In this document: in pieces, positions 2,177 through 62,213 of the stretch
Numbering within the stretch: position 1 is the stretch's first letter
Layout: each line of letters starts with the position of its first letter
Assembly (NCBI RefSeq): GCF_032884065.1
Contig: NC_088873.1
Location: 1,054,001 to 1,118,000, forward strand
Source: Artemia franciscana
Taxonomy: Eukaryota; Arthropoda; Branchiopoda; Anostraca; Artemiidae
Length of the DNA: 64,000 bases
Direction of reading: 5' to 3'
The notes under the pieces: model-generated
What the model saw: the letters and a program-made list of their open reading frames with translations, nothing else
The model's database searches: none
Told to the model about the DNA's origin: nothing
Made by a program: the position numbers and the translations under genes

Positions 2177-2191
2177 CTATGCGGAGCATAT

Positions 2192-5100
2192 CAAACAGTT
2201 CGTTGTAACGAACTGTAGTAAGGAGCGAACCGGCTCAATAGAAACCAAAACTCTAAAAAATGTGGTTTTCATATCAATAGGTACATCAAAAGAATCGCAT
2301 TCTAATGCTGATTTTAAATATATAAGTTTAATCAAGTTTAGTCTTACCCATCAAAAGTTACGAGCCTGAGAAAATTTGCCTTATTTTAAAAAATAGGGGA
2401 AAACAACCCCTAAAAGTCATAGAATCTTAACGATTCTAAACGAATTAAATAAAAAAAAACTAATTTTTTTAGCTGAAAGTAAGGAGCGACATTAAAACTT
2501 AAAACGAACAGAAATTACTCCGTATATGAAATGAGTTGTCCCCTCCACAATCCCTCGCTCTTTACGCTAAAGCTTTTAATTGTTTTAAAAAGTAGAATTG
2601 TGGCAAAGAGTCAAAATTTAGCGTAAAGAGCGAGGGATTGTGGAGGGGACAACTCATTTCATATACGGAGTAATTTCTGTTCGTTTTAAGTTTTAATGTC
2701 GCTCCTTACTTTCAGCTAAAAAAATTAGTTTTTTTTTATTTAATTTCTGAACGTTTTTGAATTAATGCATGTTTGGTTTTGGCTCTCCGCACATAAATTA
2801 TTAAAATGAAATTTGTGTATTAATTCTTTTTTTGGCTAAATGGCTTTCTATTAGTTTTGATCAGACGATTTTGAGAAATAAGGGGTGGAGAAGGAGGCCT
2901 AGTTGCCCTCCAATTTTTCGGTTACGTAAAAAGGCAACTAGAACTTTTAATTTTTAATGAACGTTTTTATTGGTAAAAAATATACGTAACTTAAGAATTA
3001 ACTTATGTAACAAACTTTCATAACCTTATATTTTTATTATGTATACGAGGGGGTTTGTACCCTCGTTAATACCTCGCTCTTTACACTAAATCGTAAGTTT
3101 TGTCCCAATTCTTTAAGAATGACCCCTGAATCAGAAAGGCCGTAGAATAAATAGTTGAAATTACTAAAATTACTTTAGCATAAAGAGCAAGATATTTATC
3201 TCCTCCTAAATACCTCGCTCTTTATGCTAAAGTATTTTTAGAACCCCTCATATGCGTAATAATCTTTGTTCGTTTTAAGTTTCAATGCTACTTCTTCCTT
3301 TCATTTGAAAAAACGTTTTCATGTTCATTTTTCATTGTTTTCTTATAGTAATGCTAGAGAATCCTGCGCCCTTGTCATTGAATTTTTCTTCCCCCATGAC
3401 AGATTCCTCCAAGGAAAGATCCTCCAACATAGCCCACCCCCCTCAGCCCCACCCCCAAACAAAATAAAATCCCCCTAAAAACGTCTGTACACTTCCCAAC
3501 AACCATTACTATATGTAAACACTGGTCAAAGTTTGTAACTTGCAGCCCCTCCTCCAGGGACTGTGGGGGAGTAAGTCATCCCCAAAGACATAGTTATTAT
3601 GGTTTTCGACTATGCTGAACAAAATGGCTATCTCAAAATTTTGATCCGTTGACTTTGGGAAAAAAGGAACGTGGGAGGGGGCCTAGATGCCCTCCAATTT
3701 TTTTGGTCACTTAAAAAGGGCACTAGAACTTTTCATTTCCGTTAAAATGAGCTCTCTTGCGACATTCTAGGACCACTTGGTCGATACGATGACCCCTGGG
3801 GAAAAGAAAAAAAAAAAAACAAAAAAAAAAAACAAACAAATAAACACGCACCCGTGATTTGTCTTCTGGCAAAAAATACAAAATTCCACATTTTTGTAGG
3901 TAGGAGCTTGAAACTTCTACAGTAGGGTTCTCTGATACGCTGAATCTGATGGTGTCATTTTCGTTAAGATCCTACCACTTTTAGGGGGTGTTTCCCCCTA
4001 TTTTCCTAAATAAGGCAAATTTTCTCAGGCTCGCAACTTTTGATAGGTAAGACTAAACTTGATGAAACTTATATATTTAAAATCAGCATTAAAATGCGAT
4101 TCTTTTGATGTAGCTATTGATATCAAAGTTCAATTTTTTAGAGTTTTGGTTACTATTGAGCCGGGTCGCTCCTTACTACAGTTCGTTACCACGAACTGTT
4201 TGATTTTAAATCACACCATCAGATTCAGCGTATCAGAGAACCCTACTGTAGAAGTTTCAAGCTCCTATCTACAAAAATGTGGAATTTCGTATTTTTCACC
4301 ATAAGACAAATCACGGGTGCGTGTTTATTTGTTTTTTTTCCCCAGGGGTCATCGTATCGACATTCAAGGGTCATCGACATTCTAGTGGTCCTAGAATGTC
4401 GCAAGAGGGCTCATTCTAACGGAAATGAAAAGTTCTAGTGCCCTTTTTAAGTGACCAAAAAATTGGAGGGCACCTAGGCCCCCTCCCACGCTCATTTTTT
4501 CTCCAAAGTCAACGGATCAAAATTTTAAGATAGCCATTTTGTTCCGCATAGTCAAAAACCATAATAACTATGTCTTTGAGAATGACTTACTCCCCCACAG
4601 TCTCTGAAGGAGGGGTTGCAAGTTACAAACTTCGGCCAGTGTTTACATACAATAATGGTTATTGGGAAGTGTACAGCGTTTTCAGGGGATTTTTTTGTTT
4701 TGTTTTGGGGGTGGGGTTGAGGGGAAGAGGCTATGTGGGAGGATCTTTCTTTGGAGAAATATGTCATGGGGGAACAGAAATTCAATGAAAAGGGCGCAGG
4801 ATTTTCTAAAATTACTATAAAAAAAAAACAATGAAAAAATAAACATGGAAAAGTTTTTTTCAGTTGAAAGTAAGGAGTAGCATTGAAACTTAAAACGAAC
4901 AGAGATTATTACGCATATGAGGGGTTCTAAAAATACTTTAGCATAAAGAGCGAGGTATTTAGGAGGAGATAAATACCTCGCTCTTTATGCTATAGTATTT
5001 TTAGTAATTTCAACTATTTATTCTACGGCCTTTCGGATTCAGGGGTCATTCTTAAAGAATTGGGACATAACTTACGATTTAGTGTAAAGAGCGAGGTATT

Positions 5101-5720
5101 AACGAGGGTACAAACCCCCTCATATACATAACACAAATTTAAGAATATAAAAGTTTGTTACGCAAGCTAATTCTTAAGTTACGTATATTTTTTTACTAAT
5201 AAAAACATTCGTTAAAAATTAAAATTTATAGTTGCCTTTTTATGTAACCGAAAAATTGCAGGGCAACTAGGCTTTCCCCACCCCTTATTTCTCAGAATCG
5301 TCTGATCAAAACTAAGAGAAAGCCATTTAGCTAAAAAAGGAATTAATATGCAAATTTCATTTTAATAACTTATATGTGGAGAGCCAAAATCAAACATGAA
5401 TTAATTCAAAAACGTTCAGAAATTACATAAAAAAAAACTAGTTTTTTTTAACTGAAAGTAAGGAGCGACATTAAAACTTAAAACGAACAGAAATTACTCC
5501 GTATATGAAATGGGTTGTCCCCTCCGCAATCCCTCACTCTTTACGCTAAAGTTTGACTCTTTGCCACAATTCTGCTTTTTAAAACAATTAAAAACTTTAG
5601 CGTAAAGAGCAAGGGATTGCGGAGGGGACAACCCATTTCATATACGAAGTAATTTCTGTTCGTTTTAAGTTTTAATGTCGCTCCTTACTTTCAGTTAAAA
5701 AAACTGTTTTTTTTATGCAA
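2192..5720 (+). mobile_element. TT-element, + copy interrupted by a second copy
   Basis: The outer element begins at 2192 with CAAACAGTTCG, is interrupted at about 2443, and resumes at 4203 with the sequence that normally follows (AATCACACCATCAGATTCAGC). It runs to about 5720, ending in a palindrome whose arms are about 5437-5565 and 5595-5720. Without the insertion it would be about 1.77 kb, the usual length for the family. Its 3' tip is degraded (TTTATGCAAT instead of TTTATTTAAT). It has no coding capacity. A T precedes the first base, as in the other copies. Confidence 0.85.
2444..4202 (-). mobile_element. TT-element, complete copy nested in the 2192-5720 copy
   Basis: This is a full-length copy in reverse orientation. 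Read on the + strand it opens with ATTAAATAAAA at 2444 and closes with CGAACTGTTTG at 4202. The palindrome arms are about 2444-2571 and 2617-2744 with a ~45-base spacer. Next come the inner direct and inverted modules, the A-rich tract near 3790-3840 and the terminal hairpin CAGTTCG/CGAACTG at 4179-4198. It must be younger than its host copy. A few extra bases at each junction prevent a clean target-site reconstruction here. Confidence 0.88.
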
Positions 5721-6577
5721 TAAAAAATAGCAATTGACAAGAGTATAATAGAAAAAAATGTAAGAAAAACATTTAGTTTTCCACTCAGAAGTAAAGAAGT
5801 CGATTAAGCCAAAAATGAGTTAAAATAAATTCGAATAGTTTTCCAAGCTTAAAACTACCCCAAATCACCATCAATAAATAAATTTAACCTAAAACAAACA
5901 TAAATTACAATAAATAACCGAGTCAAACTCGAAACGAGCAAAAATTAACATGGGTATCATTCAAGTGCTGATCTATATTAATCACTAATGTAGGAAAACA
6001 GTCTTTCTTTTCTCCTTCTGTCTTTTTTTTATGTGTTTGTTCTGTTGCATTGGTGATTTCTCTTTTCATTATAAGTATGACTGACAACCCTTACGCCTTT
6101 TAATGACCAGAATATAATTTGCACTTTACTGAAAACTAGATATATTTTAATTTTATTAACTTTTTTTGACTTTGATAAATAAAGAAGTATTAAGACTATA
6201 AGGAATAAATATCTGAACATATATAGTAAACCGACAATCCACGATTATTATTTTTTTTTTTTTGTAAAGTGCAAATTATGTTCTGGTCATGAGAAGACAT
6301 GGGGGTTCCCAGCCCTATCGTTTTCGATTAAAAATGTATTGAACAGTCCTTATTTATTTCAAATATATCATATTTTAATACCTGACGTCAACTGTACCTT
6401 AATGATTGGCTTACCACAGTCTACACAAATTTGTGTTAATACTTACCAATATTTTGTGACAAAACTGTATTTGCTAATACCCATCTCTATTATTTTTATC
6501 TAAAGCAGAAAAATCTAATGTTTAATAAAGTATTCATAGGAAACAACTATTAGAACTAAATCCTTCCTTTTTTCTAG
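5721..6577. other. intron sequence upstream of the 6578 exon
   Basis: AT-rich sequence with no gene or recognised repeat. It ends in a pyrimidine-rich tract (TCCTTCCTTTTTTCTAG) at 6561-6577, a good 3' splice site. Confidence 0.5.
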
Positions 6578-6769: not shown

Positions 6770-9700
6770 GTAGATAAATAAGTAAAATTAATTTGATCAG
6801 ATCTTAATTAGAAAAGCTAATATTATTAGCTGATTTCCCAGTAGTTTTGAAAGATAAATTGCCTGATTTTTTCTTTAAATATCATATTGGGAAAATATTT
6901 CATTAACATGGTAATTTTAACATCATAACTTTACTTATATGGTAATTTTATTCACATGAAAATTTTAATTTGAAAAGCTGATATTAATAGCTCATTTTCT
7001 AAGAGTTTTGATAGGTAAATTTCCTAATTTTTATTATCATAATTAGCAAAATATTCTATTAACATTTTAATTTTCATCATTTTCTAGAAGAATGATGAGA
7101 ATAGTGATAATTATTAACGAATAAAAAACGAAACGAAACAAAATAATAACAAGAGCAAATAGGAGGAATGGGATGAATTTGTAGAAATGATTCATTTCTA
7201 ATGTCTGTTAGCTATATTAATAAAATATTACAAATACAAAAATAATAAATAAAACAACATTAATACCACATGAGCGACTGGGACTTGGGTAAAATTAAAT
7301 AAAAACAAACAAGTTTTTTTTAACTGAAAGTAAGGAGCGACATTAAAACTTAAAACGAACAGAAATTACTTCGTCTATGAAAGGGGCTGCTCCCTCCTCA
7401 ACGCCCCACTCTTTACACTGAAGTTTTACACTTTCTCTTAACTCTACCTTTTAAAACAGTAAAAAATTTTAGCGTAAAGAGCGGGACGTTGAGGAGGGAG
7501 TAGCCCCTTTCATATACGAAGTAATGTCGCTCCTTACTTTCAGTTAAAAAAACTTTTTTTTCTAAGTTAATTTCTGAACGTTTTTGAATTAATGCATGCT
7601 ATGATTTTGGCTCTCCACAGATGAATAATTAAAACGAAATTTGCATTTCTATTTTTTTGGCTAAATTTCTTTCTCATAGTTTTCATCGAATGATTTTGGG
7701 AAAAAGTAGAACGGAGAGTCGAATGATTTTGGGAAAAAGTAAAAAAGGCAACTAGAACTTTTAAATTTTTACAAAACGATTTTATTAGTAAAAGATATAC
7801 GTAACTTACGAATTAGCTTACGTAACGAACTTTTGTATTCGTATGCTTTTATTACGTGTATAAGGGAGTTTACCCCCTCAGCAGTACCTCGCTCTTTACA
7901 ATAAATTGTCCCAATTCCTTGAGAATAACCCCTGAATCACAACGGCCGTAGAATAAATAGTTGAAATTACTAAAAATACTTTAGCGTAAAGAGCGAGGTA
8001 TTAAGAGGAGGTCAACCTCTCACATGAGTAATAATTTCTGTTCTTTTTAAGTTTTAATACTACTCCTTACTTTCAGTTGAAAAAACTTTTTCATATTTAT
8101 TTTTTATTGCTTTTTTTAATAATGCTTGAAAACCCTCACTTCCTTCCTGGAAATTTTCTTCCCCCATGACAAATTCCTCCATGGAAAGTTCCCCCAATAT
8201 ATCACCCTCTTTTCAACCCCTCCCCCAACCAGAAAATCCCCCTGAAAACGTCTGTACATTTCCGAATAACCATCACTATATGTAAGCACTGGTCAAAGTT
8301 TGTAACTTGTAGCCCCTCCCATGGGGACTTTGGGGGAGTAATTCGTCCTCAAAGACATAGTTATAAGGTTTTTAGACGATACTGAATAAAATGGCTATCT
8401 CAGAATTTTGATCCGGTGACTTTGGGAAAATAATTAGTGTGGAAGGGGCCTAGGTGCCCTCCAATTTTTTGGTCAGTTAAAAAGGACACTAGAACTTTCA
8501 TTTCCGTTAGAATGAGTCCTCTCGCAATATTCTAGGACCACTGGGTCGATACGACCACCCCTGGGAAAAAACAAAAAACAAACAAACAAATAAACACGCA
8601 TCCGTGATCTGCCTTCTGGCAAAAAATACAAAATTCCACATTTTTGTAGATAGGAGCTTGAAACTTCTACAGTATTGTTCTCTAATATGCTGAATCTGAT
8701 AGTGTGATTGAAGTTAAGATTCTATGACTTTTAGGGGTGTTTCCATCTATTTCCTAAAATAAGGCAAATTTTCTCTGGCTCGTAACTTTTGATGGGTAAG
8801 ACTAAACTTGATTAAACTTATGTATTCAAAATCAGCAATAAAATGCGATTCTTTTGATGTAGCTATTGGTATCAAAATTATGTTTTTAGAGCTTTGGTTA
8901 CTATTGAGCCGAGTCGCTCCTTACTACAGTTCGTTACCACGAACTGATTTATCCTATTTACCAGAAAAGACTTTATGTCCAACTAGGAAAAGCATATGTC
9001 TGTAAAGTATTGAGACAGAAGAATGTATTTCGGTTTTTCGAAATATTTTCAGATACAAAAAAACGGAGTAGCTTTTATGGCATAATGCTTACGACTTTGA
9101 AATGTTTAAACAGATAGGTCGGGTTTCGTCATAGATATCAACGAAAAAGTGTTTTTCGTCTATTTATTTTACTTTTAGTGAAGATAACAGATATTATTTG
9201 CCCTGTTCCTCCACCATAGGCCCGATAGAAAAGTTGATAAGACAGAACCACGCATTGTTGATGCTATATTTAAACTGCTCCATAACGAAAATAGTAAATT
9301 ACTCTGAATCCTCCTTATGTTTTATATCTTTACCCATTATTCAGCATTTTTTTTAACTCATGTTCTTTTGCAAAGGGTGACATACTTGTGTAATTTTAGT
9401 TTGTGATTTCAGTCTCTTACCGCTAAGTACAATGCATTTGTCTCATGACTAAAATTTGAAACTTAATTTTTTGAAAGTTACCCAAAAGGGTTAAAATATA
9501 TTTGTGATTGCAGTTTCCTTTCAAAGAAAACCAATAAACTCTAGCTAAAGTTTCTCTATTCAAAAAACAATCTTTCTCTTTAGCAAAAGAGTAGAACGAA
9601 GTTTTTACTTAAATTCAAGATTCAATCGATGTATTATGGCTTACCAAAAATCATATCATAGATTCTTAGACTGTAAATTTTGTTTTTCATAGATTTATTT

Positions 9701-33331: not shown

Positions 33332-33912
33332 ATTGTAGGGGTTTTTTAGTTCCCAGGATGATCCTATCGATGTAGTTCATAAACTATCTTGTCATGTCGT
33401 TGGATTCTGTGAGACTTTTCTTACAGACCTGACTCCTCAGGTTGTTTTTCCTGGATATCAATTTATTTTTAAAAACCGATTGACTAGGCACCAAGGTGGT
33501 TTAGCAGTATTAGTTAAAGAAGGAATCTCTTTTCGACGCATTGCAAAGCTGGAAGGTTCTCATGAGGAAATGCTTCTTGAAGTAATGGTGAATGAAATTA
33601 GTCTTTAAAAAAGAGATGTTTTTTGCGTAGTATACCAACCGCCTTCTTTTCCATTCAAGTTTTTCCTCTCTAAGCCCCATGATTTTTCGCATCAGCCCCA
33701 TTTGCAAAGTAAAGATGTTATCCTTTCCGGAGATTTCAATATTCCGGACCTTCTAGAAGCTTCAAATGAATCTTCTGTTGAGTTATTGTCTTCTTGCTTT
33801 TCTGCGTATCTGCTTCCTACTTGCCTGATACCTACAAGAATTTCACCTAGTTCTGCTTTTCTCATTGATAATATTTTTACATCTTTACCAATTCAAGCAA
33901 ATTTTGCTGTTT
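33322..33912 (+). pseudogene. LINE, endonuclease domain (first part)
   Basis: An apurinic-type endonuclease of a non-LTR retrotransposon begins with TLNCRG at about 33325, followed by VVGFCETFL (catalytic Glu) near 33395, GGLAVLVKEG near 33500, SGDFNI at 33726-33743 and FLIDNIF near 33857. One stop (33606) interrupts it. The final strand is split by the TT-element at 33913 and continues at 35616 with SDISDHF. The upstream side of the junction is Polinton sequence, so the LINE inserted there, probably 5'-truncated. Clade is likely within the jockey/CR1 assemblage, not resolved. Confidence 0.8.
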
Positions 33913-35615
33913 CAAACAGTTCGTGGTAACGAACTGTAGTAAGGAGCGACCCGGCTCAATAGTAACCAAAACTCTAAAAAATGGAATTTTGATACCAATA
34001 CCTACATCAAAAGAATTGCACTTTAATGCTGATTTTAAATATATAAGTTTCATCAAGTTTAATCTTACTCATCAAAAGTTACGAGCCTGAGAAAATTTGC
34101 GTTATTTTAGAAAATAGGGGGAAACGCCCCCTAGAAGTCATAGAATCTTAACGAAAATCACACCATCAGATTCAACGTATCAGAGAACCCTACTGTAGAG
34201 GTTTCCAGCTCCTATCTACAAAAATGTGGAATTTTGTATTTTTTGCCAGAAGGCAGATCACGGGTGCGTGTTTATTTGTTTTTTTTTTTGTTGTTTTTTT
34301 CCCCCAGGTGTGATCGTATCGACCCAGTTGTCCTAGAATGTTGCAAGAGGGCTCATTCTAACGGAAATGAAAAGTTCTAGTGCCCTTTTTAAGTGACCAA
34401 AAAATTGGAGGGCGCCTAGGCCCCCTCCCATGCTAATTATTTTACCAAAGTCAACGGATCAAAATTCTGAGATAGCCATTTTATTCAACGTAGTCAAACA
34501 AACCTTATAACTATGTCTTTGGGGACGACTTACTCCCCCACAGTCCCCGTGGGAGGGGCAACAAGTTACAAACTTTGACCAGTGCTTACATATAGTAATG
34601 GCTATTGGGAAGTGTAGAGACGTTTTCAGGAGGACTTTTTTGGTTGGGGGGAGGGGTTGAGAAGAGGGGGATATGCTGGGGGAACTTTCCATCGATAATT
34701 TGTCATGGGGGAAGAAAATCTCCATGAAGGGAGCGCAGGATTTACTAGCATTATTTAAAAAAACAATGAAAAAATAAATATGAAAAAGTTCTTTCAGCTG
34801 GAAGTAAGGAACAGCATTAAAACTTAAAACAAACAGAAATTATTACCCATATGAGGGGCTCACCTCCTCCTAATACCTTGCTCTTTACGCTAAAGTATTT
34901 TTAGTAATTTCAACTATTTATTCTACGGCTTTTGTGATTCAGGGGTCATTCTTAATGAACTGGGACAAAATTTAAGCTTTAGTGTAAAGAGCGAGGTACT
35001 GACGAGGGGGCGAACCCCCTCATATATGTAATAAAAATATAAGAATACAAAAGTTCTTTACGTAAGCTAATTTATAAGTTACGTAAATCTTTTACTAATA
35101 AAAAGATTCGTAAAAAATTAAAAGTTCTAGTTGAATTTTTAATTAAGCAAAAAATCGGAGGGCAACTAGGCTTCCTCCCCCGCTCTTTTTTTCTCAAAAT
35201 CATTCAATCAAAATTATGAGAAAGCCATTTAGCAAAAAAAAATGCAAATTTCGTTTTAATTATTCCTCTGCGGAGAGCCAAAATCAAAACATGCATTGAT
35301 TCAAAAATGTTCAGAAATTAAATAAAAAAACTAGTTTTTTTAACTGAAAGTAAGGAGCGAAATTAAAACTTAAAACGAACAGAAATTACTTCGTATATGA
35401 AAGAGGCTGCTTCCTCATCAACGCCCCGCTCTTTACGCTAAAGTTTTTTACTGTTTTAAAAAGACGAATTGAGAGGAAGAGTCAAACTTTAGCGTAAAGA
35501 GCGGGGCGTTGATGAGGAAGCAGCCTATTTCATATACGAAGTAATTTCTGTTCGTTTTGAGTTTTAATGTCGCTCCTTACTTTCAGTTAAAAAAAACTTG
35601 TTTTTTTTATTTAAT
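33913..35615 (+). mobile_element. TT-element, complete copy inside the LINE endonuclease
   Basis: A 1703-bp copy, CAAACAGTTCG... to ...TTTATTTAAT. The host reading frame is GCT GTT T before it and TA AGT GAT after it, which together give an uninterrupted frame (A-V-L-S-D), so the insertion went between two T bases with no target duplication or loss. Palindrome arms are about 35317-35445 and 35484-35615. The inner module (GAAAGT/GGAAGTAAGGA...CTCTTTACGCTAAAGT) lies near 34800-34890. No protein-coding capacity. Confidence 0.9.
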
Positions 35616-37950
35616 TAAGTGATATATCGGATCATTTCCTGCTGGTTTCAGATTTAGCTTTTACTTATAAATACCACCTGTAAGTAAGGAACGTCAAGGA
35701 CGGTTAATAAATAAAATAACATTAAAGCACCTGAATAAAAGCCTTGGACTATTGAATTGGCAGGAGGTAATAATCCACGGAGGATACAGATATGGCAACT
35801 GATAATTTTCTAAGAAATTTCAATTGCTGCCATGATTCTAGTTGCACATTTGTTACGATTAAAATTTGCAGAGAAAAATTTCCTATAATGCCATGGATAA
35901 CGTCTGGAATTATCAGTTAAGAAAAAAAAATCAGTTATTTAAAAAGCAGTTAAAGAATCCAACTTATTATAATATTAAAAATTTTAGAATTTTCAAAAAT
36001 AAATTAACCACACTGATACGTTTGTCGAAACAATTGTATTATAAAAAGTCTTTCGAAGAAGCTCAAAATTCTCCTCACAAAACGTGGTCTTTAATTAATT
36101 CTTTTATAAAAAAAAGAAAGTAAGTCTAATTTTCCTGAAGCTATTATTTTAGAGTATGGTTCGACTACTAATAAATCGGAGAAAGTGGCTGATATTTTGA
36201 ATACTTATTTTGCTAAAATAGGAGAGAAAATTGTTTCATCAGTCATAGAACCAGTTTGATTCACGTAGTAATAAACATTTTTCTTCATACCTTCCATCTC
36301 CTCAAAGTAATTCAATTTTTCTCGGGCCTAAATCTCGGTCTGAAATAACAAAAATAGTGTGTGATCTAAACCAAGGTAATTCAGCGGGAATTGACGGGAC
36401 TAGTTCTAAAATTTTCAGTTAAAACTGGAGTTTTCCCATCTGCTTTAAAAGAAGCGCGGATAGTTCCGCTTCACAAAGGTGACTCTCCTGAAAATCCATC
36501 AAATTACCGCCCTATTTCTATTTTGTCAGCATTTTCTAAAATACTTGAGAAGGCAATTTATAAGAGGTTTTATGACTTTCTTAAATCGTCTAATTTCTTC
36601 ACAAATTCCCAGTTTGGTTTCCGGTCTGGACACAACACTGAACATGCTATCGTTGCTCTCATCCAATATATTCATGAATTCTTAGATAGAGGTGAAATTC
36701 CAGCAACAATATATTTAGATTTTAAAAAGCATTCGATACAATAACTGTCCTAGGTCCTCTGCTTTTTTTAATTTATATAAATGATTTTCACCGCGCTTTT
36801 ACATCCCCGTGTCTCAACACACATTTTGCTGATGATACGGCAGTTTCAATTTCTGAAAAGAATGACGAGAAGTTGGAGGCAAAACTGAATACTGCATTTT
36901 CTAATGTTCTTGATTGGTGTTCTTCAAATTTTATTGCTTTGAATGTATCAAAAACTAATTTCATAATTCATAAAGTCAAATAAAGTCAAATATCTGCCCT
37001 CGTATTACCCGAGTTACTTCTTCAAAGTATCTATTATAAATATTTCGGGTGAAAATGATAAAGTACCTTGGACTTGTGATTGACGAAAGCTTATCTTTTA
37101 AAACACACATTCAAAATCTACGCTTAAAGATTAATGCGAAGGTTGAAGCTTTGTTTGCCCTACTCTGCTTTACGAAGTATTTATTTTGCTCTGATTCAGA
37201 CTAGTATTAATTATTTTTCTCTAGTATATTTATCTACATCTAAAGCCATATTAAACCAATACAGATTTTACAAAATAAAGCCCTAAGAATCCTTAAACTT
37301 TCTATTCCATCACCTATTAAGCTTCCAAATAAGTCTTCTACAGCATCTTTATATACTTATCTAGATATGCTTCCAGCTTCTCAACAATTTGCTTTTGGAG
37401 CAATTCTTTTCAAAATCAATTATAACATTAAGAAATTACCGCCATATTACCTCCACCAAAGTTTGTTCTCCCAATCACAAGATTTACATAATTATAACAC
37501 TCGACAAAAAAAGAGTATCTACATTGACAAGCACAATACTGAGAGATCTAAATTCGCTCCGTTTGTGTCAATAGATCGGTGCTGGGATGCTCACAATGCT
37601 CTTATTGATAAATTTTCCTCTACCCATTTAATAAAAAGGAAACTTAAATTTCATTTAGTTCAGGATTGTTTTTAATTAAGTATCTTTTTAGTAAGGCAAA
37701 GTTATTTGTATGATTCGTTGCTCTGGGTGATTATGGGCCTCTCAGCTATCTTCCAGTATTAATTTATATTTAATAATATTGAAATTTTTAATTTCTTCAA
37801 TAGCATTGAAAGATCCTGGGCTAGCTGCTACTTTCATATTATTGTTGTGTTATTGTATTTTTGCCGTCATGTTTATCTTTGTATTGTAGTGTATGTTGTT
37901 ATTGTATCTTTGTTTAGGCCTAGTTTTTCGAGCTTGTCTCCCAATGGGCC

Positions 37951-41866: not shown

Positions 41867-42004
41867 AAAGTAGATTAACTGTTTAATATAAAATCTCATC
41901 CATTCATGGAAGTCTGAGCGATTTTGTTGCTATAAAAGAGACAAACTTTTAAATAGATTCTAAATATTAGTACTCGACCCGTCTTATGTTTAGTGCAGCT
42001 TTTT

Positions 42005-44219: not shown

Positions 44220-45300
44220 TTTGTACGTATATGAGGGGGGTTCGTCCCCTCATTGCGCTAAAGTTCAAATTTTGTTCCAATTTTTCAAATATGACCCCTG
44301 AATACAAAGGATTTAATTAGAGTATATAGCTCTTATGAAAGCACTAAAAAGACTTTAGCGTAAAGAGCGAGGTATTGACGAGGGGGCAAAACCCCTCAGA
44401 TACGTAATAATTTCTGTTCGTCTTAAGTTTTAATGTTGTTCCTTACTTTCAGTCGAAAAAACTTGTTTTTCTTATTTAACCTCTGGTCTTTTTTCAAATA
44501 ATATTAGGAAATCCCGCGCCCCCCTCATGGAAAATTACCTTCCCACATGAAAAATTCCTCAATGGAAAGATCCTCCCACGTAGCTATCTTTCCCCCGCCC
44601 CCATCTGAAAAAATCCCACCTAAAAAGTCTGTATAGTTCCCAATAGCCAATACTATATGCAAACAATGGGCAAAGTTCACACCTCGAAGCCCTTCCCTCG
44701 AGGATTGTGGAGGATGAAGTCATCCTCAAAGACATAGTCATTGAATTTTCTGACTATGCTGAACAAAGTCTCAAAATGTTGGATCAGGTGACATTGGGAA
44801 AAAAGAGCATGGGAGGAACCTAGTTGACCTCTTATTTTTTGGTCACATAAGAACGGCACAGAACTTTGAATTTCCGTTCGAATGAACCCTCTTACGATAT
44901 TTTAGGAAAACTAGGTCGATACGGACACCCCTGGGAAGAAAAAACAAATAATCACACATCCGTGATCTTTCTTCTTGCAAAAAATAAATTCTACATTTTG
45001 CAGATTGAAACCTCTACAGTAGGGTTCTCTGATAAGCTGAATGTGACGATGTGATTTTCATTAAGATTCTATGATTTTTTTTGTTTTGTTTCCCCCTTTT
45101 TTCGAAAACAAGGCAAATATTCTCAGGTTTGTAACTTTTAATGGGTAAGACTAAACTTGATGGTACTTAATATATTTGAAATCACCATTAAAATTCATTC
45201 TTTTTGTGTATCTATTGGTACCAAAATTCCGATTTTAGAGTTTCAGTTACTATTGAGCCGGGTCGCTCCTTACTTGCAGTTCTTTACCTTGAACTGTTTG
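44220..45300 (-). mobile_element. TT-element, reverse copy lacking the terminal palindrome
   Basis: Runs from GTACGTATATGAGGGGG near 44223 through the inner module pair (GCGCTAAAG at 44267; CTTTAGCGTAAAGAGCGAGG near 44353) to the terminal GAACTGTTTG at 45300. The palindrome half and about 600 bases are missing. The adjacent base at the hairpin end (A; T on the element strand) fits the family. Confidence 0.85.
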
Positions 45301-47487
45301 AAACCTTGGAATCGAAGCTTGCTAATTTCGAGGTCCAAAGGCATTTAAAGTCGGGAGAGCAGATTGCTCACTTTGACGCCCTTTAAAACAAATAAATAAA
45401 ATAAAACGCATGATTTTATATCGCTGTGTATAAGATATAGTAGCCATTCATACTTTATATCAAAAAATAATGTTCAATTCTTTGACTTTGTTTCTTAAGG
45501 AAGCTGGGGTGTGGAGATATTACACTAAAAGTGGTTTGTCCCCTTTTCCTTCTATGTATACCAATTACTTTTGTTTTACTAGAATAACGGCTTAGTAATT
45601 AATGATTGTTTATATAAAGTCACTATCATGTCATCTTCATGACTTCATCTATTTCCTTTAGTACCAAAATCAGTCATCGTCATCCCCGCTTTTAGATACC
45701 TCTTAGGCGCCAAAGTTAATAAACTGCTGCGCCAACTTAGGTTCGAAGAAGCCTAACCCTTTTACCAAACAACCAAATTTAGCTTTTACCGACAAAAGTT
45801 TTTACACAAACAGAAATGAACCTGTATTTGTGGAGGTGTCCTCCCTTGACCTTTATCTTAAATTTTATCTTTATCTTATTTATCTTTATCCCAAATTCTC
45901 CAAGCGTAACTACTTTAACACAAGGACAATGGGTTCTGGGTATGAGTTATTTTTCACAATAATTAATGAATGAAAGGGTTTAATTATGCACCATTGCTAC
46001 AAATAATAAAATTTTCAGTTCAAAAAATTTTGAAAAGCAATCAGTAAAAAAAACTCTTGTTATTACCCACTAACTATAACTGCTAAGACTTTAGCGAAAA
46101 CAGGGGATTTCTCCCCTGTTACAGGGGAGATATCCCTCCCCTGTAATATAGGGGAGGGATATATCTGTAATATATCCCTCCATACATACAGGGCCATTTC
46201 GGTTCATCTTAAAGTTTAATGTTGCCGCTTATTTTCGATTGACAAAAAAGAAATTTATTTATGTAAAGGAACTTGAAACATCTGATATAGTCTTCCTGGA
46301 AAGTTTAAATTAGACTGTAAAATTTGCATCACTAGCTCTTCCCTTTAATATTTCACCTTATTTCTAAATTATGAAAATTTTTATACGATATAAGCTTTTA
46401 AGGAGCAATTTTAAATTAACTAATTATACATGTCAAATAATTAGTATTAAAAGATATCGTTAGTGCATGTTTTTGCAATGAAAACTTTGTTTTTTAGAGT
46501 TTCGATTTCTTCTGGCAATGATTGTTCTTTATTGACAAATTGTTATTACAGACTATTTGGCCCAGGGATCTCTTAAATTTCACAAATCACCCCTTCAGCC
46601 CCCATTTTCCAAATTCAAGCTGTATAACAATGTTTCAACAATGAAAATCAAGTTAAAAATTCACAGGAAATTTTGAAAACTAAATATTTTTTTCAAACAG
46701 GTGATCGGTACTATTAAATATCAATCTCTAGTTTGTTATTTTTTAAACTGATATCCCCACCCTCCGTTTCTTTATGTCTTGGTCAAAATAGCATCTGATA
46801 AGGTGAATTTTGAGAAATGACAAATAAGCACCGATTGGATCTCTTCTTCACATTCTTCCACGAATTTATGTTCAAGCTGTATCAAGATTATAAAAAAAAC
46901 TTATGCTGTATCAATGCATTTTCGAAAAAAAGAAACTCATTTTGAAACCCAAATAAGAATAGGAGCAGGGAAGGAATGAGACCAATTGAACTAGTATGCT
47001 TCATTTTAAAAGGGGGAGGCCTATAACTGCCTCTTTAATATAATTTATCACAAAAGAATTCTTTGAATTGATTCCCAGAACCTGAACTACTTTAGTAAAT
47101 AAATTAACAATACAAAAGAAATTAACATACCTATTTGGAAGTCAGGATCGCCACAAGGGACAGGGAATAGGCCTATGTACAATGAATATAATAAAAGAAA
47201 TAAACATAATTATTTGGGAGTCAGGATCGTCACGAGAGAAAGAAAATTCGTTTAAACTCATTTAAATTCTTATGTGTGTCAACTTGACAAAAAGTGTCAC
47301 ATAGTACCTTTTAAATATCTATTGTTACCAGAATCTAATTTAGCTCCCTGACAACCAGGATTATCCCAGTGAAAAGCAAATGTGATTTTATCCCCTTTAG
47401 CTTGTTATAAATATTCCTATAATAAAAATACGTCACGTGACAGCTTTTGGATTACAGTAGACCCTTTGGATATGAGGAACCACTTAC
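45301..47487. other. intron sequence with a decayed repeat tail
   Basis: Mostly AT-rich with no exon. A set of short inverted repeats of CCCCTGTTACAGGGGAGATATCCCTCCCC and its complement lies at 46105-46165. At 46205-46265 the words TTCGGTTCATCTTAAAGTTTAATG and GCCGCTTATTTTCG resemble a worn TT-element arm. A block near 45690-45765 loosely resembles 63085-63160 in reverse complement. Confidence 0.4.
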
Positions 47488-47627: not shown

Positions 47628-47883
47628 CTAAAAAAAACTTCTCTTTAGGTCTAAAATAACAAAAAAAACTTATTAGATAGGATTAAAGTTGCCATCAATC
47701 CATGGCTAATTGGAGAAAAAGCAAAGACAGTCTGAGTGAGAGGCGAAGCTGGCATAAGCTTTTTTCAGAATTGTATAGGAATGATGTCATTTAAATTGTT
47801 GATATAAAGTCTATCATCAATCCATCCTAGGGCAGAACTAAGGTAGATAGTCATAGAATTAAGGGATGATCAAGATTTTTGGG

Positions 47884-47981
47884 TTTCTAGCCCCTCCACT
47901 TGCTTTTGTAAGCTTTGACGCTGTCGCTTGGTCATGCAGTCTGCTGCAGCATCCACACATGTCATTCCTTTTTTAAAGGCA
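47884..47981 (-). pseudogene. truncated exon duplicate 1 (of five)
   Basis: Acceptor and 5' exon part are intact, but a one-base deletion (GCCCC for GCTCCC) and loss of the 3' half and donor follow. The codons Thr-Glu read Ala-Asp (GCAGCAGAC) in this copy. Confidence 0.85.
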
Positions 47982-48241
47982 CTAAAAAAAAAAACTTCTC
48001 TTTAGGTCTAAAATAACAAAAAAAAACTTATTAGATAGGATTAAAGTTGCCATCAATCCATGGCTAATTGGAGAAAAAGCAAAGACAGTCTGAGTGAGAG
48101 GCGAAGCTGGCATAAGCTTTTTTCAGAATTATATAGGAATGATGTCATTTAAATTGTTGATATAAAGTCTATCATCAATCCATCCTAGGGCAGAACTAAG
48201 GTAGATAGTCATAGAATTAAGGGATGATCAAGATTTTTGGG

Positions 48242-48339
48242 TTTCTAGCCCCTCCACTTGCTTTTGTAAGCTTTAACGCTGTCGCTTGGTCATGCATTCT
48301 GTTGCAGCATCCACACATGTCATTCCTTTTTTAAAGGCA
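48242..48339 (-). pseudogene. truncated exon duplicate 2, with a stop codon
   Basis: Same truncation as its neighbours. In addition CAA is changed to TAA (CAGCGTTAAAGC on the - strand), a premature stop right after MTKRQR. Confidence 0.85.
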
Positions 48340-48598
48340 CTAAAAAAAAACTTCTCTTTAGGTCTAAAATAACAAAAAAAAAACTTATTAGATAGGATTA
48401 AAGTTGCCATCAATCCATGGCTAATTGGAGAAAAAGCAAAGACAGTCTGAGTGAGAGGCGAAGCTGGCATAAGCTTTTTTCAGAATTGTATAGGAATGAT
48501 GTCATTTAAATTGTTGATATGAAGTCTATCATCGATCCATCCTAGGGCAGAACTAAGGTAGATAGTCATAGAATTAAGGGATGATCAAGATTTTTGGG

Positions 48599-48696
48599 TT
48601 TCTAGCCCCTCCACTTGCTTTTGTAAGCTTTGACGCTGTCGCTTGGTCATGCATTCTGCTGCAGCATCCACACATGTCATTCCTTTTTTAAAGGCA
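48599..48696 (-). pseudogene. truncated exon duplicate 3
   Basis: Same truncation; the Thr before Glu-Cys is Ala here. The acceptor lies directly beside a T-run because the ~30-base block seen in other units is missing. Confidence 0.85.
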
Positions 48697-48923
48697 CTAA
48701 AAAAAAAAACTTATTAGATAGGATTAAAGTGCCATCAATCCATGGCTAATTGGAGAAAAAGCAAAGACAGTCTGAGTGAGAGGCGAAGCTGGCATAAGCT
48801 TTTTTCAGAATTGTATAGGAATGATGTCATTTAAATTGTTTATATAAAGTCTATCATCAATCCATCCTAGGGCAGAACTAAGGTAGATAGTCATAGAATT
48901 AAGGGATGATCAAGATTTTTGGG

Positions 48924-49021
48924 TTTCTAGCCCCTCCACTTGCTTTTGTAAGCTTTGACGCTGTCGCTTGGTCATGCATTCTGCTGCAGCATCCACACAT
49001 GTCATTCCTTTTTTAAAGGCA
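48924..49021 (-). pseudogene. truncated exon duplicate 4
   Basis: Almost identical to duplicate 3, including the shortened acceptor region and the Thr-to-Ala change, so it probably arose from the same unit. Confidence 0.85.
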
Positions 49022-49246
49022 CTAAAAAAAAAATTATTAGATAGGATTAAAGTGCCATCAATCCATGGCTAATTGGAGAAAAAGCAAAGACAGTCTGAGT
49101 GAGAGGCGAAGCTGGCATAAGCTTTTTTCAGAATTGTATAGGAATGATGTCATTTAAATTGTTGATATGAAGTCTATCATCGATCCATCCTAGGGCAGAA
49201 CTAAGGTAGATAGTCATAGAATTAAGGGATGATCAAGATTTTTGGG

Positions 49247-49344
49247 TTTCTAGCCCCTCCACTTGCTTTTGTAAGCTTTGACGCTGTCGCTTGGTCATGC
49301 ATTCTGTTGCAGCATCCACACATGTCATTCCTTTTTTAAAGGCA
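49247..49344 (-). pseudogene. truncated exon duplicate 5, first in transcript order
   Basis: Keeps the Thr-Glu-Cys of the functional exon. The flank beyond the acceptor (GGAAAAAAAAACTTCTCTTGGAG) diverges from the other units, marking the array edge. Confidence 0.85.
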
Positions 49345-51789: not shown

Positions 51790-53298
51790 GGATTTACTAC
51801 TACTAATAACTCACTATAGCACCAAGCCGTCTGAAGCCAGAACAGGTACGCACGCTCCTCCTCCATCCCAGTCCATTCAAAGCCTCCCTCTTTACACTCT
51901 CTAAAGAAGTTCCCATTTCCTTGAAATCTTTATTTATGAGATTCTCCCACCCCAACCACGGATGACCTGCTTTCCATTTAGCCCTAGATGGTTGGCCGAA
52001 AAGCACAATTTTTAGCAATCTGTCATCAGATTGCGTCATCAGGGCAATCTTATTCCGCAGAACTTGCCCTAGCCATTTCAATTTTTCTCTCATTATAGCC
52101 TTAGAAAGTAGGATTGAACCACACTTTCCGTGCAACCTACTTTTTGAAATATGGTCAGTCAGCCAATCCGTAGGACAACCGAACAATCCGTACAGAACGA
52201 TCCGTAGGCAATTTCTCTGGAAAACATCTAGCAAATCTTCATCTGCTTTTCGGAGCGCCCATGCTTCAGAGCTATATTTGACCACTGTCATTACTATAGT
52301 TTCCAATGTTCTAATCTTAGTTTGCAGACTTATTTTCCTATTCTTCCAAACTTTTTTTAACTTTGAAAATATAAAGAGGGATAGAACACAGCCCTGCTTA
52401 ACTCCTGAGTTGAAACGAAACCAGCAGATAAACTCACTTCCTACCTTAAATGCGGCAGTGTTATTCTCGTACATAGCACTAATTAATTACTTTAATGTCT
52501 TTGTCTGGTATACCATACAAGGATAAAAACCTTTGCTAAAGTTCTTCTATCAACATAATCGAACGCCTACTGATAATCTATAAAACTGAGGATCAAAGGT
52601 TTGATAACTCAGGTACTTCTCCATTATTAACCTAAGAGTGAAAATTTGGTCGACGTATCCTCTACCTTTTCTAAAACCGTACTGTTCTTCTCTAAAAACT
52701 TTGTCTACAGCATCTCTCAGTCTAAAAAGTATCATATTGCTAAGTAATATGCTACCTACAGAGACCAGAATAATGCCTCGATAATTACTACACTCACTCT
52801 TATTCTTTTCTAATGCAGGGGTTTAATTAGGTTTTTTTCTAAAATCGCTAGGTACTTCCCATTTTTCAAAAATCATATTCATAACCCTCAGTAGCTTATT
52901 TCTAACCTCAGAGCCACCATATTTAAGAAACTCATTTACCACACTATCAGCATCTGGAGCCTTATTTTTAAATTATTTTATAATATTTCGCTAATTCCTT
53001 CTCACAAAACAAATCTTCCTTCCCATCTAAGGTAGCACAAACTTTTCCGTTTTCCTCTATATCTTTTCATGCAACTCTATCTCGGTTTAGCACATTCTCA
53101 AAATGTCCTGCCCCTCTCTGTTTAAACCTTTTCTTATCACTAATTGTGGCCTTGTTTCTATCTTTAACAGGGACATGTCCAGATTGACTGATCCCTCTCA
53201 ATTTATTAACATGCCAGTACAATCTGTTATGCAGTCTAGCTACATCTTCCAGATCCTTGAAAATTTTATCCATTGCCTCGACTTTATACCGCCTTAGT
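51790..53298 (-). pseudogene. LINE on - strand: RT remnant and C-terminal region
   Basis: In transcript order (right to left): a linker at 53273-53067 (MDKIFKDLEDVARLHNRLYW), the RT fingers with EEQYGFRKGRGYVDQIFTLR (about 52700-52630), an AFDYVDRRTLAKV-like segment (about 52570-52530), and SGVKQGCVLSLFIF (about 52410). There the frame jumps straight to KLKKVWKNRKISLQTKIRT, so the block with the catalytic FADD is deleted. The C-terminal part (VKYSSEAWALRKADEDLLD through KLKWLGQVLR and GWRRSVRTCSGFRRLG) runs to a stop at 51803. The 3' end is a TAGTAGTAGTAAA-type tail near 51790. The enzyme cannot be active. Confidence 0.82.
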
Positions 53299-55047
53299 CA
53301 AACAGTTCGTGGTAACGAACTGTAGTAAGGAGCGATCCGGCTCAATAGTAACCAAAACTCTAAAAAATTGAATTTTGATATAAATAGCTACATCAAAAGA
53401 ATCGCATTTTAATGCTGATTTTAAATATATAAGTTTCATCAAGTTTAGTCTTAGCCATCAAAAGTTACGAGTCTGAGAAAACTTACCTTATTTAGGAAAA
53501 TAGGGGGAAACACCCCCTAAAAGTCGTAGGATCTTAACAAAAATGACACCATCAGATTCAGCGTATCAGAGAACCCTACTGTAGAAGTTTCAAGCTCCTA
53601 TCTACAAAAATGTGGAATTTTGCATTTTTTGCCAGAAGACAAATCACGGGTGCGTGTTTATTTGTTTGTTTTTTTTTGCTTTTTTTTTGTTTTTTCCCAG
53701 GGGTCATCGTATTGAACAAGTGGTCCTAGAATGTCGCAAGAGGGCTCATTCTAACGGAAATGAAAAGTTCTAGTGCCCTTTTTAAGTGACCAAAAAAATT
53801 GGAGGGCATCTAGGCCCCCTCCCACGCTCATTTTTTCCCAAAGTCAACGGATCAAAATTTTGAGATAGCCATTTTGTTTGGCATAGTCGAAAATCTTAAT
53901 AACTATGTTTTTGGGGATGACTTACTCCCCCACAGTCCCTGGGGGAGGGGTTGCAAGTTACAAACTTCAACCAGTGTTTACATATAATAATGGTTATTGG
54001 GAAGTGTACAGACGTTTTCAGGGTTTTTTTTGGTTTTGGGGGTAGGGTTGAGGGAGGGGACTATGTGGGAGGATCTTTCCTTGGAGAAATATGCCATGGG
54101 GGAAAAAATTCAATGAAAAGGGCGCAGGATTTTCTAGCATTACTATAAAAAAAAAACAATGAAAAAATAAACATGAAAACGTTTTTTCAAATGAAAGTAA
54201 GGAATAGCATTGAAATTTAAAACAAACAGAGATTATTACGCATATGAAGGGTTTTAAAAATACTTTAGCATAAAGAGCGGGGTATTTAGGAGGAGATAAA
54301 TACCTCACTCTTTATGCTAAAATATTTTTAGTGATTTCAACTATTTATTCTACGGCCTATTTAATTCAGGGGTCATTTTTAAGAATTGGAACAAAACTTA
54401 CGGTTTAGTGTAAAGAGCGAGGTATTAACGAGGGTACAAACCCCCTCGTACACATAATAAAAATATAAGAATATAAAAGTTTGTTACGTAAGTTAATTCT
54501 TAAGTTACGTATATTTTTTACTAATAAAAACGTTCGTTGAATATTAAAAGTTCTAGTAGCCTTTTTAAGTAACCGAAAAATTGGAGGGTAGCTAGGCCTC
54601 CTTCCCCACCCCTTATTTCTCAAAATCGTCTGATCAAAACTAAGAGAAAGCCATTTAGCCAAAAAAAAATTAATATACTAATTTCATTTCAATAATTTAT
54701 GTGCGGAGAGCCAAAATCAAACATGCATTAATTCAAAAACGTTCAGAAATTAAATAAAAAAAACTAGTTTTTTTAATTGAATGTAAGGAGCGACATTAAA
54801 ACTTAAAACGAACAGAAATTACTCCGTATATGAAATGGGTTGTCCCCTCCGCAGTCCCACGCTCTTTACGCTAAAGTTTTTAGTTGTTTTAAAAAGTAGA
54901 ATTGTGGCAAAGAGTCAAACTTTAGCGTAAAGAGCGTGGGACTGCGGAGGGGACAACCCATTTCATATACGGAGTAATTTCTGTTCGTTTTAAGTTTTAA
55001 TGTCGCTCCTTACTTTCAGTTAAAAAAACTAGTTTTTTTTATTTAAT
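53299..55047 (+). mobile_element. TT-element, complete copy inside the - strand LINE
   Basis: A 1749-bp copy, CAAACAGTTCG to TTTATTTAAT. Flanks are CCTTAGT before and TCATATTT after. Read on the - strand the host frame is AAA TAT GAA | CTA AGG CGG, which closes up without a change of frame if the element went between the two T bases. Palindrome arms are 54749-54877 and 54919-55047, with a ~41-base spacer. A second, inner hairpin lies at about 54257-54330 (TACTTTAGCATAAAGAGCGG / CTCTTTATGCTAAAATA). No coding capacity. Confidence 0.9.
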
Positions 55048-55900
55048 TCATATTTTAAAGCTCTCTCCACTTCCTTTACGTCCTTTTTGTTTTCAATGAT
55101 CTATCACTCAGATAATTCTTGTACAAGCCCCTTCTCCCCTGTAATAAACATAAAGCTTTTTCACTAAAATTCCTAGCTGTCGTCCTAGTATTTTCTCTAA
55201 GACACCACCAGCAACCTGAAAAAGTGTTTTCCTAAAGTTATTCCATCCATATGTTCTATTGTCAAATTTTAAACTTTCTGGTCTAGTATTCAACTGTTCC
55301 AGAAAAGTTTCTCTCAAATTCTCATCTTAGAGTCTACCAGAATCATAACTTCTCGGGATGTAGTTTTCTTCCGAAATTCCAGCTAATAAATTAACCCTAG
55401 ACACTACCAGACGGTGATCTTTACTTTTAACATCAATAACAGCACTCCTATATACTCTAGTATCTTCTACTGATCCTATTATCTTCGGTTTACAATAATA
55501 TAATCAATAAGGTTTGCTGTCGTACCACCACGCGAATACCAGGTTAACTTATGGGTTCATTATATGACCAATGCAAAGTTTTGGTTATAACTAAAATTTT
55601 AAACCTACAAAATGGCAACAGTCTATAGCCATTTCTGTTTTCTTTTCCTGGACCAAATTTACCAAGGCTAGGATACCATCAATCCCTATTTCTACCGACC
55701 TGGGCGTTAAAATCTCCAAATGGAAACACCATACTTCTACCTGAGACCCTGTCTATTTGCTCCTGCAACTGTAAGTATAATTCATCTGAGTCACTAGTAT
55801 CTCCGTCAGTAGGTTCTACAGGATACTACTATAGCTGATACCCTGAAATTTCTAGTAATAAATTGAGGTATTCAGGTTAGTAGATACAAATAATTCCCGC
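55048..55900 (-). pseudogene. LINE on - strand: endonuclease domain
   Basis: Upstream (5') part of the LINE continued at 51790-53298. GDFNAQ, the endonuclease catalytic motif, is at 55717-55700. KFGPGKENRNG follows near 55660, then VEDTRVYRSAVIDVKSKDHRLVV (about 55470-55400; the last Asp-His is the catalytic pair). The linker MRETFLEQLN...AGGVLEKILGRQLG (55317-55108) leads into the TT-element junction. Stops occur after GRNRD (near 55680) and near 55330. The 5' end is lost in the AAGTAGTCACAGT repeat beyond 55900. Confidence 0.8.
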
Positions 55901-60024: not shown

Positions 60025-60497
60025 CTGGATGAATGAACAATGCTATGTAGAAGTAAATTAATTATAGAGCAGCATAAGGAAAATCAAAACATTTGTGTAT
60101 GTCTTATTTCTGCTTAATCGTCGTAGTATCAGTCTGTGTTTTACATACTGATAAGAATATTATTTGAAAATATTGAAAATCTACTAAGGGATCTGAGTGA
60201 AAGAACAGAAATTTGAAATGAATAGCTAGGGTAAGACCTAACTAGAGTATATTTTTAGCATCCCTACCCCTTACAAAAATGTTGAAGGTATTGTATGTAT
60301 ATATAGTTCTGGGACAAAGGAAACACTATAGTGGCAAAAAACCTTTGCTTCTTATTAGACCAACCCTCTCCCAGACCAATCAGCTTGGCGCATCCAATAA
60401 ATTATGTCCATGACCATAGTTTCTCCATTTTCGACCATTTTAACTTCAGCACCGTTCAAAAGTCAAGGTGTGATTCAGATACAGCTGATGACATTAT

Positions 60498-62206
60498 CAA
60501 ACAGTTCGTGGTAACGAACTGTAGTAAGGAGCGACCCGGCTCAATAGTAACCAAAACCCTAAAAAATGGAATTTTGATACCAATACCTACATCAAAAGAA
60601 TCGTATTTTAATGCTGATTTTAAATATATAAGTTTCATCAAGTTTAGTCTTACCTATCAAAAGTTACGAGCCTGAGAAAATTTGCGTTATTTTAGAATAT
60701 AGGGGGAAACGCCCCCTAGAAGTGATAGAATCTTAACGAAAATCACACCATCAGATTCAGCGTATCAGAGAACCCTACTGTAGAAGTTTCAAGCTCCTAT
60801 CTACAAAAATGTGGAATTTTGTATTTTTTGCCAGAAGGCAGATCACGGGTGCGTGTTAATTTGTTTTTTTTTGTTTTTTTTTTGTTTTTTTTCCCTAGGG
60901 GTGATCGTATCGACCCAGTTGTCCTAAAATGTTGCAAGAGGGCTCATTCTAACGGAAATGAAAAGTTCTAGTGCCCTCTTTAAGTGACCAAAAAAATTGG
61001 AGGGCACCTAGGCCCCCTCCCACGCTGATTATTTTACCAAAGTCAACGGATCAAAATTCTGAGATAGCCATTTTATTCAGCGTAGTCGAAAAACCTTATA
61101 ACTATGTCTTTGGGGACGACTTACTCCCCCACAGTCCCCGTGGGAGGGTCAACAAGTTACAAACTTTGACCAGTGCTTACATATAGTAATGGTTATTGGG
61201 AAGTGTACAGGCGTTTTCAGGGGGATTTTTTGGTTGGGGAGGGGTTGAGAAGAGGGAGATATGCTGGGGAACTTTCCATCGAGAATTTGTCATGTGGGAA
61301 GAAAATTTCTATGAAGGGAGCGCAGGATTTACTAGCATTATTAAAAAAAAAAAAATGAAAAAATAAATATGAAAAAGTTCTTTCAGCTGGAAGTAAGGAG
61401 CAGCATTAAAACTTAAAACAAACAGAAATTATTACCCATTTGAGGGGATCACCTCCTCCTAATACCTCGCTCTTTACGCTAAAGTATTTTTAGTAATTTC
61501 AACTATTTATTCTACGGCTTTTGTGATTCTGGGGTCATTCTTAATGAATTGGGACAAAATTTAAGCTTTAGTGTAAAGAGCGAGGATCTGACAAGGGGGC
61601 GAACCCCCTCATATATGTAATAAAAATATGAGAACACAATAGTTCTTTACGTAAGCTAATTTATAAGTTACGTAAATCTTTTACTAATAAAAGTATTCGT
61701 AAAAAATTAAAAGTTCTAGTTACCTTTTTAATTAACCAAAAAATAGGAGGGCAACTAGGCTTCCTCCCCCGCTCTTTTTTTCTCAAAATCATTCGATCAA
61801 AATTATGAGAAAGCCATTTAGCCAAAAAAAAATACAAATTTCGTTTTAATTATTCCTCTGCGGAGAGCCAAAATCAAAACATGCATTGATTCAAAAACGT
61901 TCAGAAATTAAATAAAAAAAACAAATTTTTTTAACTTAAAGTAAGGAGCGACATTAAAACTTAAAACGACCAGAAATTACTTCGTATATGAAAGAGGCTG
62001 CTTCCTCATCAACGCCCCGCTCTTTACGCTAAAGTTTTTTACTGTTTTAAAAAGAAGAATTGAGAGAAAGAGTCAAACTTTAGCGTAAAGAGCGAGGCGT
62101 TGATGAGGAAGCAGCCTCTTTCATATACGAAGTAATTTCTGGTCGTTTTAAGTTTTAATGTCGCTCCTTACTTTCAGTTAAAAAAACTTGTTTTTTTTTA
62201 TTTAAT
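60498..62206 (+). mobile_element. TT-element, complete copy
   Basis: A 1709-bp copy, CAAACAGTTCG to TTTATTTAAT, with T on both flanks (GACATTAT|...|TCCATAAAG). Palindrome arms are about 61907-62036 and 62075-62206. It is very close to the 33913 copy, including the AACGCCCCGCTC arm sequence. Both arms carry the same private substitution (C at 61970, G at 62142) relative to the family. It lies just upstream (in transcript sense) of the 60024 exon, in the same gene's presumed intron. Confidence 0.9.
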
Positions 62207-62213
62207 TCCATAA

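Follow-up and report, generated by a model that had tools for sequence, protein, structure and literature searches.

The P-superfamily transposon Galileo moves by cut and paste and carries its interior between its repeats. In the portion of the Galileo and Foldback-like literature consulted (PMC3573991), these repeats resemble the ones reported here in being long and inverted, and are reported as 98-100% identical within a copy; a flip of the loop is not described there. Arm matching and spacer inversion are joined in yeast, where template switching at inverted repeats yields homogenized arms together with spacers that invert repeatedly and reversibly (PMC8604942). In RNA genes, template-switch mutations create and maintain hairpins (PMC8794818).

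We describe a family of palindromes in the brine shrimp Artemia franciscana, starting from a 64-kb stretch of DNA (hereafter the window). Their arms pair by copy, differ between subfamilies by substitutions present on both arms, and flank a loop that has been inverted repeatedly, in one copy together with an arm marker. Very probably, occasional exchange between the palindrome arms of a noncoding transposon both homogenizes the arms and inverts the loop. Homogenized arms combined with an inverted spacer are the mark that the literature assigns to template switching between the arms of inverted repeats: as in the yeast cases (PMC8604942), the arms become identical and the spacer inverts, and as in RNA-gene hairpins (PMC8794818), inverted copies arise de novo, loops invert and compensatory changes occur. 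A first-pass annotation of the window had proposed that the two arms of each palindrome evolve together; that observation is real, and stronger than first stated.

Elements and palindromes in the window

Six 1.7-kb elements of a single family lie in the window (34% G+C; Table 1), each with a terminal palindrome of about 300 bp and a start that reads TCAAACAGTTCGTGGTAACGAACTG or close to it. By eye, GTAAGGAGCGAC is found near the 5' end and again, in inverted form, ~36 bp short of the 3' end, forming subterminal inverted repeats, and a short A/T stem-loop lies near the 3' end. That end reads TTTAATT or close to it and lacks the CTRR of canonical Helitron 3' ends; in 65% of 91 cases TTTAAT is followed by a further T. 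In the 5' flank, T accounts for 51-56% at two positions, followed by A at 59% and then a fixed T (n = 81). Thirty flank pairs inspected by eye are without a regular target-site duplication, with a near-repeat at one locus (L016). Another insertion (L024) sits between the halves of an inverted repeat, preceded by CACTTGGTA and followed by TACCAAGTG, as though its target had been a palindrome.

Such ends resemble those of nonautonomous Helentrons (HINEs), and the palindrome is the 3' end of a high-copy, noncoding transposon of A. franciscana. On sequence grounds, it is plausible that the element is Helentron-like and uses a rolling-circle mode. The first-pass annotation had suggested that arm rewriting would suit such a mode; the mode is plausible from the element ends, and its link to arm rewriting is tentative. 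Helitron_like_N (PF14214) domains are very numerous in the genome (best 150 of 7435 candidates scored), in open frames of up to 2091 aa.

Table 1. Element copies and palindrome features in the window
Feature	Coordinates	Strand	Palindrome	Remarks
Full element copy	60497..62207	+	61906-62207	Palindrome forms the 3' end
5' end of this copy	60497..60536	+		CAGTTCGT..ACGAACTG hairpin, then GTAAGGAGCGAC, which recurs inverted in the 3' arm (by eye)
Left arm, terminal palindrome	61906..62033	+		61906 copy
Loop (spacer)	62034..62078	+		61906 copy; forward orientation (F)
Right arm	62079..62207	+		Forms the 3' terminus; carries GTAAGGAGCGAC inverted (by eye) and an A/T stem-loop
Full element copy	33912..35616	+	35316-35616	Loop F; ~95% identity to copy 60497..62207
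Full element copy	53298..55048	+	54748-55048	Subfamily I; loop F
Full element copy A	2442..4204	-	2443-2745	Subfamily I; loop inverted (R)
Element copy B, 5' part	2189..2434	+		Interrupted by copy A
Element copy B, remainder	4208..5721	+	5422-5721	Loop inverted (R)
Older full element copy	7292..8952	-	7292-7573	Loop F; arms mismatched at 7/86 core sites
Older relative, 3'-truncated	44249..45301	-		Used as outgroup
Internal hairpin, subfamily I	54255..54330; also 3164-3241, 4927-5004			Inverted copy of neighboring sequence

Copy A lies reversed within copy B of the same family (2189-5721), which results in a giant imperfect inverted repeat. Element 60497-62207 contains a 118-bp direct repeat (80%) and the relic of an internal palindrome (76-78%); it seems to be a composite in which a single 3' module is present as two diverged copies. 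Tandem arrays occupy 40796-41995 (units of ~450 bp), 42164-43143 (~340 bp) and 47661-49323 (323-358 bp).

The arm sequences quoted in the first-pass annotation were located by eye where it had placed them, and its claim that arms are alike within a copy and unlike between copies held. Within the six copies, 18 of 631 core sites are mismatched, and the true left/right pairing is the best of all 720, the mean over pairings being 57.5 mismatches. Among 29 variable core columns, copies differ on both arms in 16 and show one-arm differences only in 13. A tree of the 12 arms, a window-scale form of the check that the annotation had set, pairs arms by copy in three of six cases (P2443, P54748 and P61906), the others grouping by subfamily; left arms clustering with left arms, the outcome that the annotation named as refuting, was not seen.

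One double change, A to C at 61970 and T to G at 62142, had been singled out as private to its copy. It is present, but beyond the window it is common property: both arms have it in 28 of the 29 genomic copies closest to this one, and both have A in the remaining copy, L026. The 61906 palindrome also has unmatched arm differences that the first-pass annotation had left unmentioned (2/109 core sites, as well as differences in the outer A/T tract). A single double change is weak evidence; the strength lies in the many columns and copies.

A feature absent from the first-pass annotation is that the loop is inverted relative to the body in two of the six window copies, A and B. Over a 51-bp loop stretch, these two align to P54748 with scores of 45 and 47 when inverted and 6.5 when direct. 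Copy A (reversed) is sister to the copy at 53298 (forward) in the tree of window copies, at 91.

Arm matching and loop inversion across the genome

We searched the genome assembly (1.27 Gb, 6468 contigs) with palindrome queries. Each query had between 1195 and 4574 candidates, of which 40 were scored, and for three of the queries 30 were fetched (90 loci in total, 3.3 kb each); the unscored candidates are not confirmed copies. Eighty-nine of the fetched loci were parsed, L014 being dropped as it was without body flank, and with three window copies they form a set of 92. One locus, L005, corresponds to window copy 60497..62207, and L056 was reassigned by its body to the P54748-like group before consensuses were compared. 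Exact-pattern scans of viral contigs gave 0 loci, and a phage-record search, an Rfam search and a viral-contig protein search found nothing. Exact-pattern scans of genome contigs gave 0 and then four chance matches of no more than ~30 bp, which were left unused.

Across the 92 copies there are 148 within-copy mismatches at 9292 sites, against a permuted mean of 777 (0/10000 permutations as low). Taken by group, pairing exceeds chance in P2443-like copies (82 within-copy mismatches vs 139.5 permuted) and in P61906-like copies (40 vs 50.1), with 0/10000 permutations as low in either. It is not beyond chance in the youngest subfamily, the P54748-like group (14 observed vs 14.0 permuted). Excess pairing is therefore present in the other groups and absent from the youngest, indicating that it accumulates with lineage depth.

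Comparison of subfamily consensuses, with columns counted as both-arm/one-arm/other, gives 13/0/1 for P61906-like against P54748-like, 13/1/0 for P61906-like against P2443-like, and 3/0/0 for P2443-like against P54748-like. When a single window copy replaces a consensus, one-arm columns become more frequent (for example, 10/6/0 for 7292 against P54748-like), as expected from later mutation. Arms simulated as independent gave on average 0.29 both-arm and 23.3 one-arm columns, and reached 13 both-arm columns in 0/2000 runs. The consensuses are thus well beyond what independent mutation would give, with 13 both-arm columns observed and ~0.3 predicted. Changes private to one copy number 67 on one arm and 7 on both, of which the one in L026 probably represents the ancestral state; those on one arm fall 42 on the left and 25 on the right.

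Between copies, divergence of the same arm attains the level of the body (13.7% at 13.3% body distance). Within copies, the two arms differ on average by 0.6-0.9% at body distances below 3% and by 1.6-2.2% in each of the bins beyond. Copies were chosen by their closeness to the palindrome queries, a choice that under-samples changed arms; under 11% body distance, arms diverge less than the body (4.4% at 9.3%, for example). In L098 (1-421), the inner arm halves are of different types, the right with 1-2/75 differences from the W35316/P61906 type and the left with 6-7/75. This locus may be an intermediate or a mosaic, perhaps reflecting palindrome transfer between elements.

Loop orientation was read in fetched copies relative to the body flank. 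Loops are forward in 28/29 P61906-like copies (reversed in 1/29) and in 28/30 P54748-like copies (reversed in 2/30), both of these being young subfamilies. Copies retrieved with the P2443 query are reversed in 27/30 and forward in 3/30, one of the forward copies, L056, falling in the P54748-like clade by body. A Fitch count on the body tree of the 92 copies gives eight orientation changes, a rough figure, as numerous nodes are weak and the branches to L093 and L053 are very long. Reversed copies L066 and L068 differ at 39/1337 body sites, have no minority alleles in common and both have forward copies as their closest neighbors, pointing to separate flips. For L051 and for L059 the closest bodies are those of reversed copies; the two have alleles in common, and their flips may not be separate events. 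In L034, a C-left/T-right arm marker is swapped along with the loop, so this is a true inversion that extends into the arms. Queries composed of flank, arm and reversed loop read through in 40/40 scored copies for L066; for L034 they read through in 24/40 and stop at the loop in 16/40, among them L025, independently scored as forward.

Proposed routes of exchange and rival explanations

The 13/0/1 consensus columns together with repeated loop inversion give good support to the earlier proposal of arms rewriting each other. In the enzymology that we infer, sequence would pass between the ~128-bp arms of a single DNA molecule or of sister molecules, through gene conversion or through polymerase template switching during replication or repair. 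A non-crossover event would copy one arm onto the other, so that a mutation is either spread to both or erased, and a crossover-like or two-switch event would invert the ~45-bp loop along with the inner arms. The pace would be occasional, slower than one event per transposition, and still fast enough for lineages with ~13% body divergence to differ almost only by both-arm changes.

Among the routes raised by the first-pass annotation was snap-back synthesis on a single-stranded intermediate. In the rival considered here, every transposition would pass through such a rolling-circle intermediate, with one arm serving as template for the other. The element has rolling-circle-like ends and the palindrome occupies its 3' end, which fits such copying, and matching seems to go with activity. 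Six old copies, fetched from 40 scored and 84-85% identical to the window 7292 copy, have 43/633 arm mismatches; with the 7292 copy itself (7/86), the seven amount to 50/719, against 1/303 in the three subfamily consensuses (p = 3.4e-7). Loops are forward in 6/6 of the fetched old copies; as to a possible accumulation of flips with age, reversed loops number 0/7 among all old copies vs 5/89 among the others (p = 1). Arm copying may be tied to active lineages rather than to dead copies, probably as a preference, and some homogenization may have followed insertion in the old copies. Against re-synthesis at each transposition, a C/T difference between arms, the marker swapped in L034, is inherited by 27/29 copies of the P61906-like subfamily and a right-arm-only change was passed to 6/30 copies of another; the arms are thus not remade every time an element moves. 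Private changes, moreover, are mostly on one arm, and snap-back copying alone gives no loop inversion. We regard re-synthesis at every transposition as unsupported and snap-back copying as an unlikely account of the arms, an occasional version of it being possible. A tentative alternative, improbable in our view, places both events in transposition: the 3' end of a rolling-circle transposon, when single-stranded, would fold up as its long palindrome, and processing of the hairpin would occasionally copy an arm or invert the loop, such that only active lineages would stay matched and dead copies would decay.

Mismatch repair in short single-stranded hairpins, another of the routes first suggested, would act on any stem-loop of the element, and subfamily I provides an internal control. 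Its 30-bp internal hairpin seems to have been born by inverted copying of neighboring sequence: by eye, inverted adjacent sequence replaces a short stretch and adds 34 alignment columns, which looks like a template-switch product. In the 57 copies with both structures, however, variant states are ever both-arm in 1/31 cases at the internal hairpin vs 13/71 at the terminal palindrome (Fisher p = 0.059), and 5.5% vs 1.5% of sites are mismatched. Among states found in at least two copies, none is mostly both-arm and 14 are mostly one-arm at the internal hairpin, with 5 and 11, respectively, at the terminal palindrome, and the internal loop has a single orientation in 44/44 readable copies. Because the internal hairpin is hardly homogenized, processes dependent on long arms, such as long-tract template switching or gene conversion, are favored over short-hairpin repair, though the comparison is only suggestive; hairpin repair is weakly disfavored by it and, as the general explanation, improbable. 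Selection for base pairing, with single-arm mutants inactive and compensating mutations restoring activity, would account for the near-perfect arms of the subfamily consensuses. It is a very improbable explanation, since sources with an arm difference yielded at least 27 and at least 6 sampled copies, and under selection one would expect no loop inversion, nor would both arms change as fast as the body. Assembly of palindromes is error-prone in general, and polishing errors could mimic conversion, though many one-arm differences have been kept. The retention of such differences in many copies, the consistency of the pattern across dispersed loci and the simulations described above leave ordinary independent mutation, chance or assembly artifact barely credible as the source of the pattern. 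Arm exchange is the reading that we carry into the comparison below; counting against it are the chance-level pairing in the youngest subfamily, the choice of copies by palindrome, the predominance of one-arm states (11 vs 5) at the terminal palindrome of subfamily I and the roughness of the Fitch count.

Comparison with described systems

In the portion of the Helentron and HINE report consulted (PMC4067079), the elements share with ours a noncoding body, a subterminal inverted motif and a short 3' stem-loop, and perhaps a T-rich target. The 3' palindromes of mite HINEs, as given there, are 5-10 bp, whereas the Artemia 3' end lies within a ~300-bp palindrome. Scale and setting also separate the Artemia family from the systems that it resembles in process. 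The yeast arms (PMC8604942) are 7-16 bp with inverted spacers of a few bases and lie in genes; ours are ~128 bp with a ~45-bp loop and belong to a multicopy transposon. Stems of the RNA-gene hairpins are short, mostly of a few base pairs (PMC8794818). Among titles and abstract openings of the Helentron and Helitron literature on palindromes, inverted repeats, gene conversion and template switching, we found no comparable case.

So large a family is a natural experiment in which rates of arm conversion and spacer flipping can be set against neutral body divergence, and it lends itself to testing what keeps mirror repeats matched. Should active lineages indeed be preferred, maintenance of the palindrome would be tied to the transposition of a rolling-circle-like element. 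The process is of a known kind; what appears to be new is its setting in a Helentron-like element, whose long 3' palindrome flip-flops.
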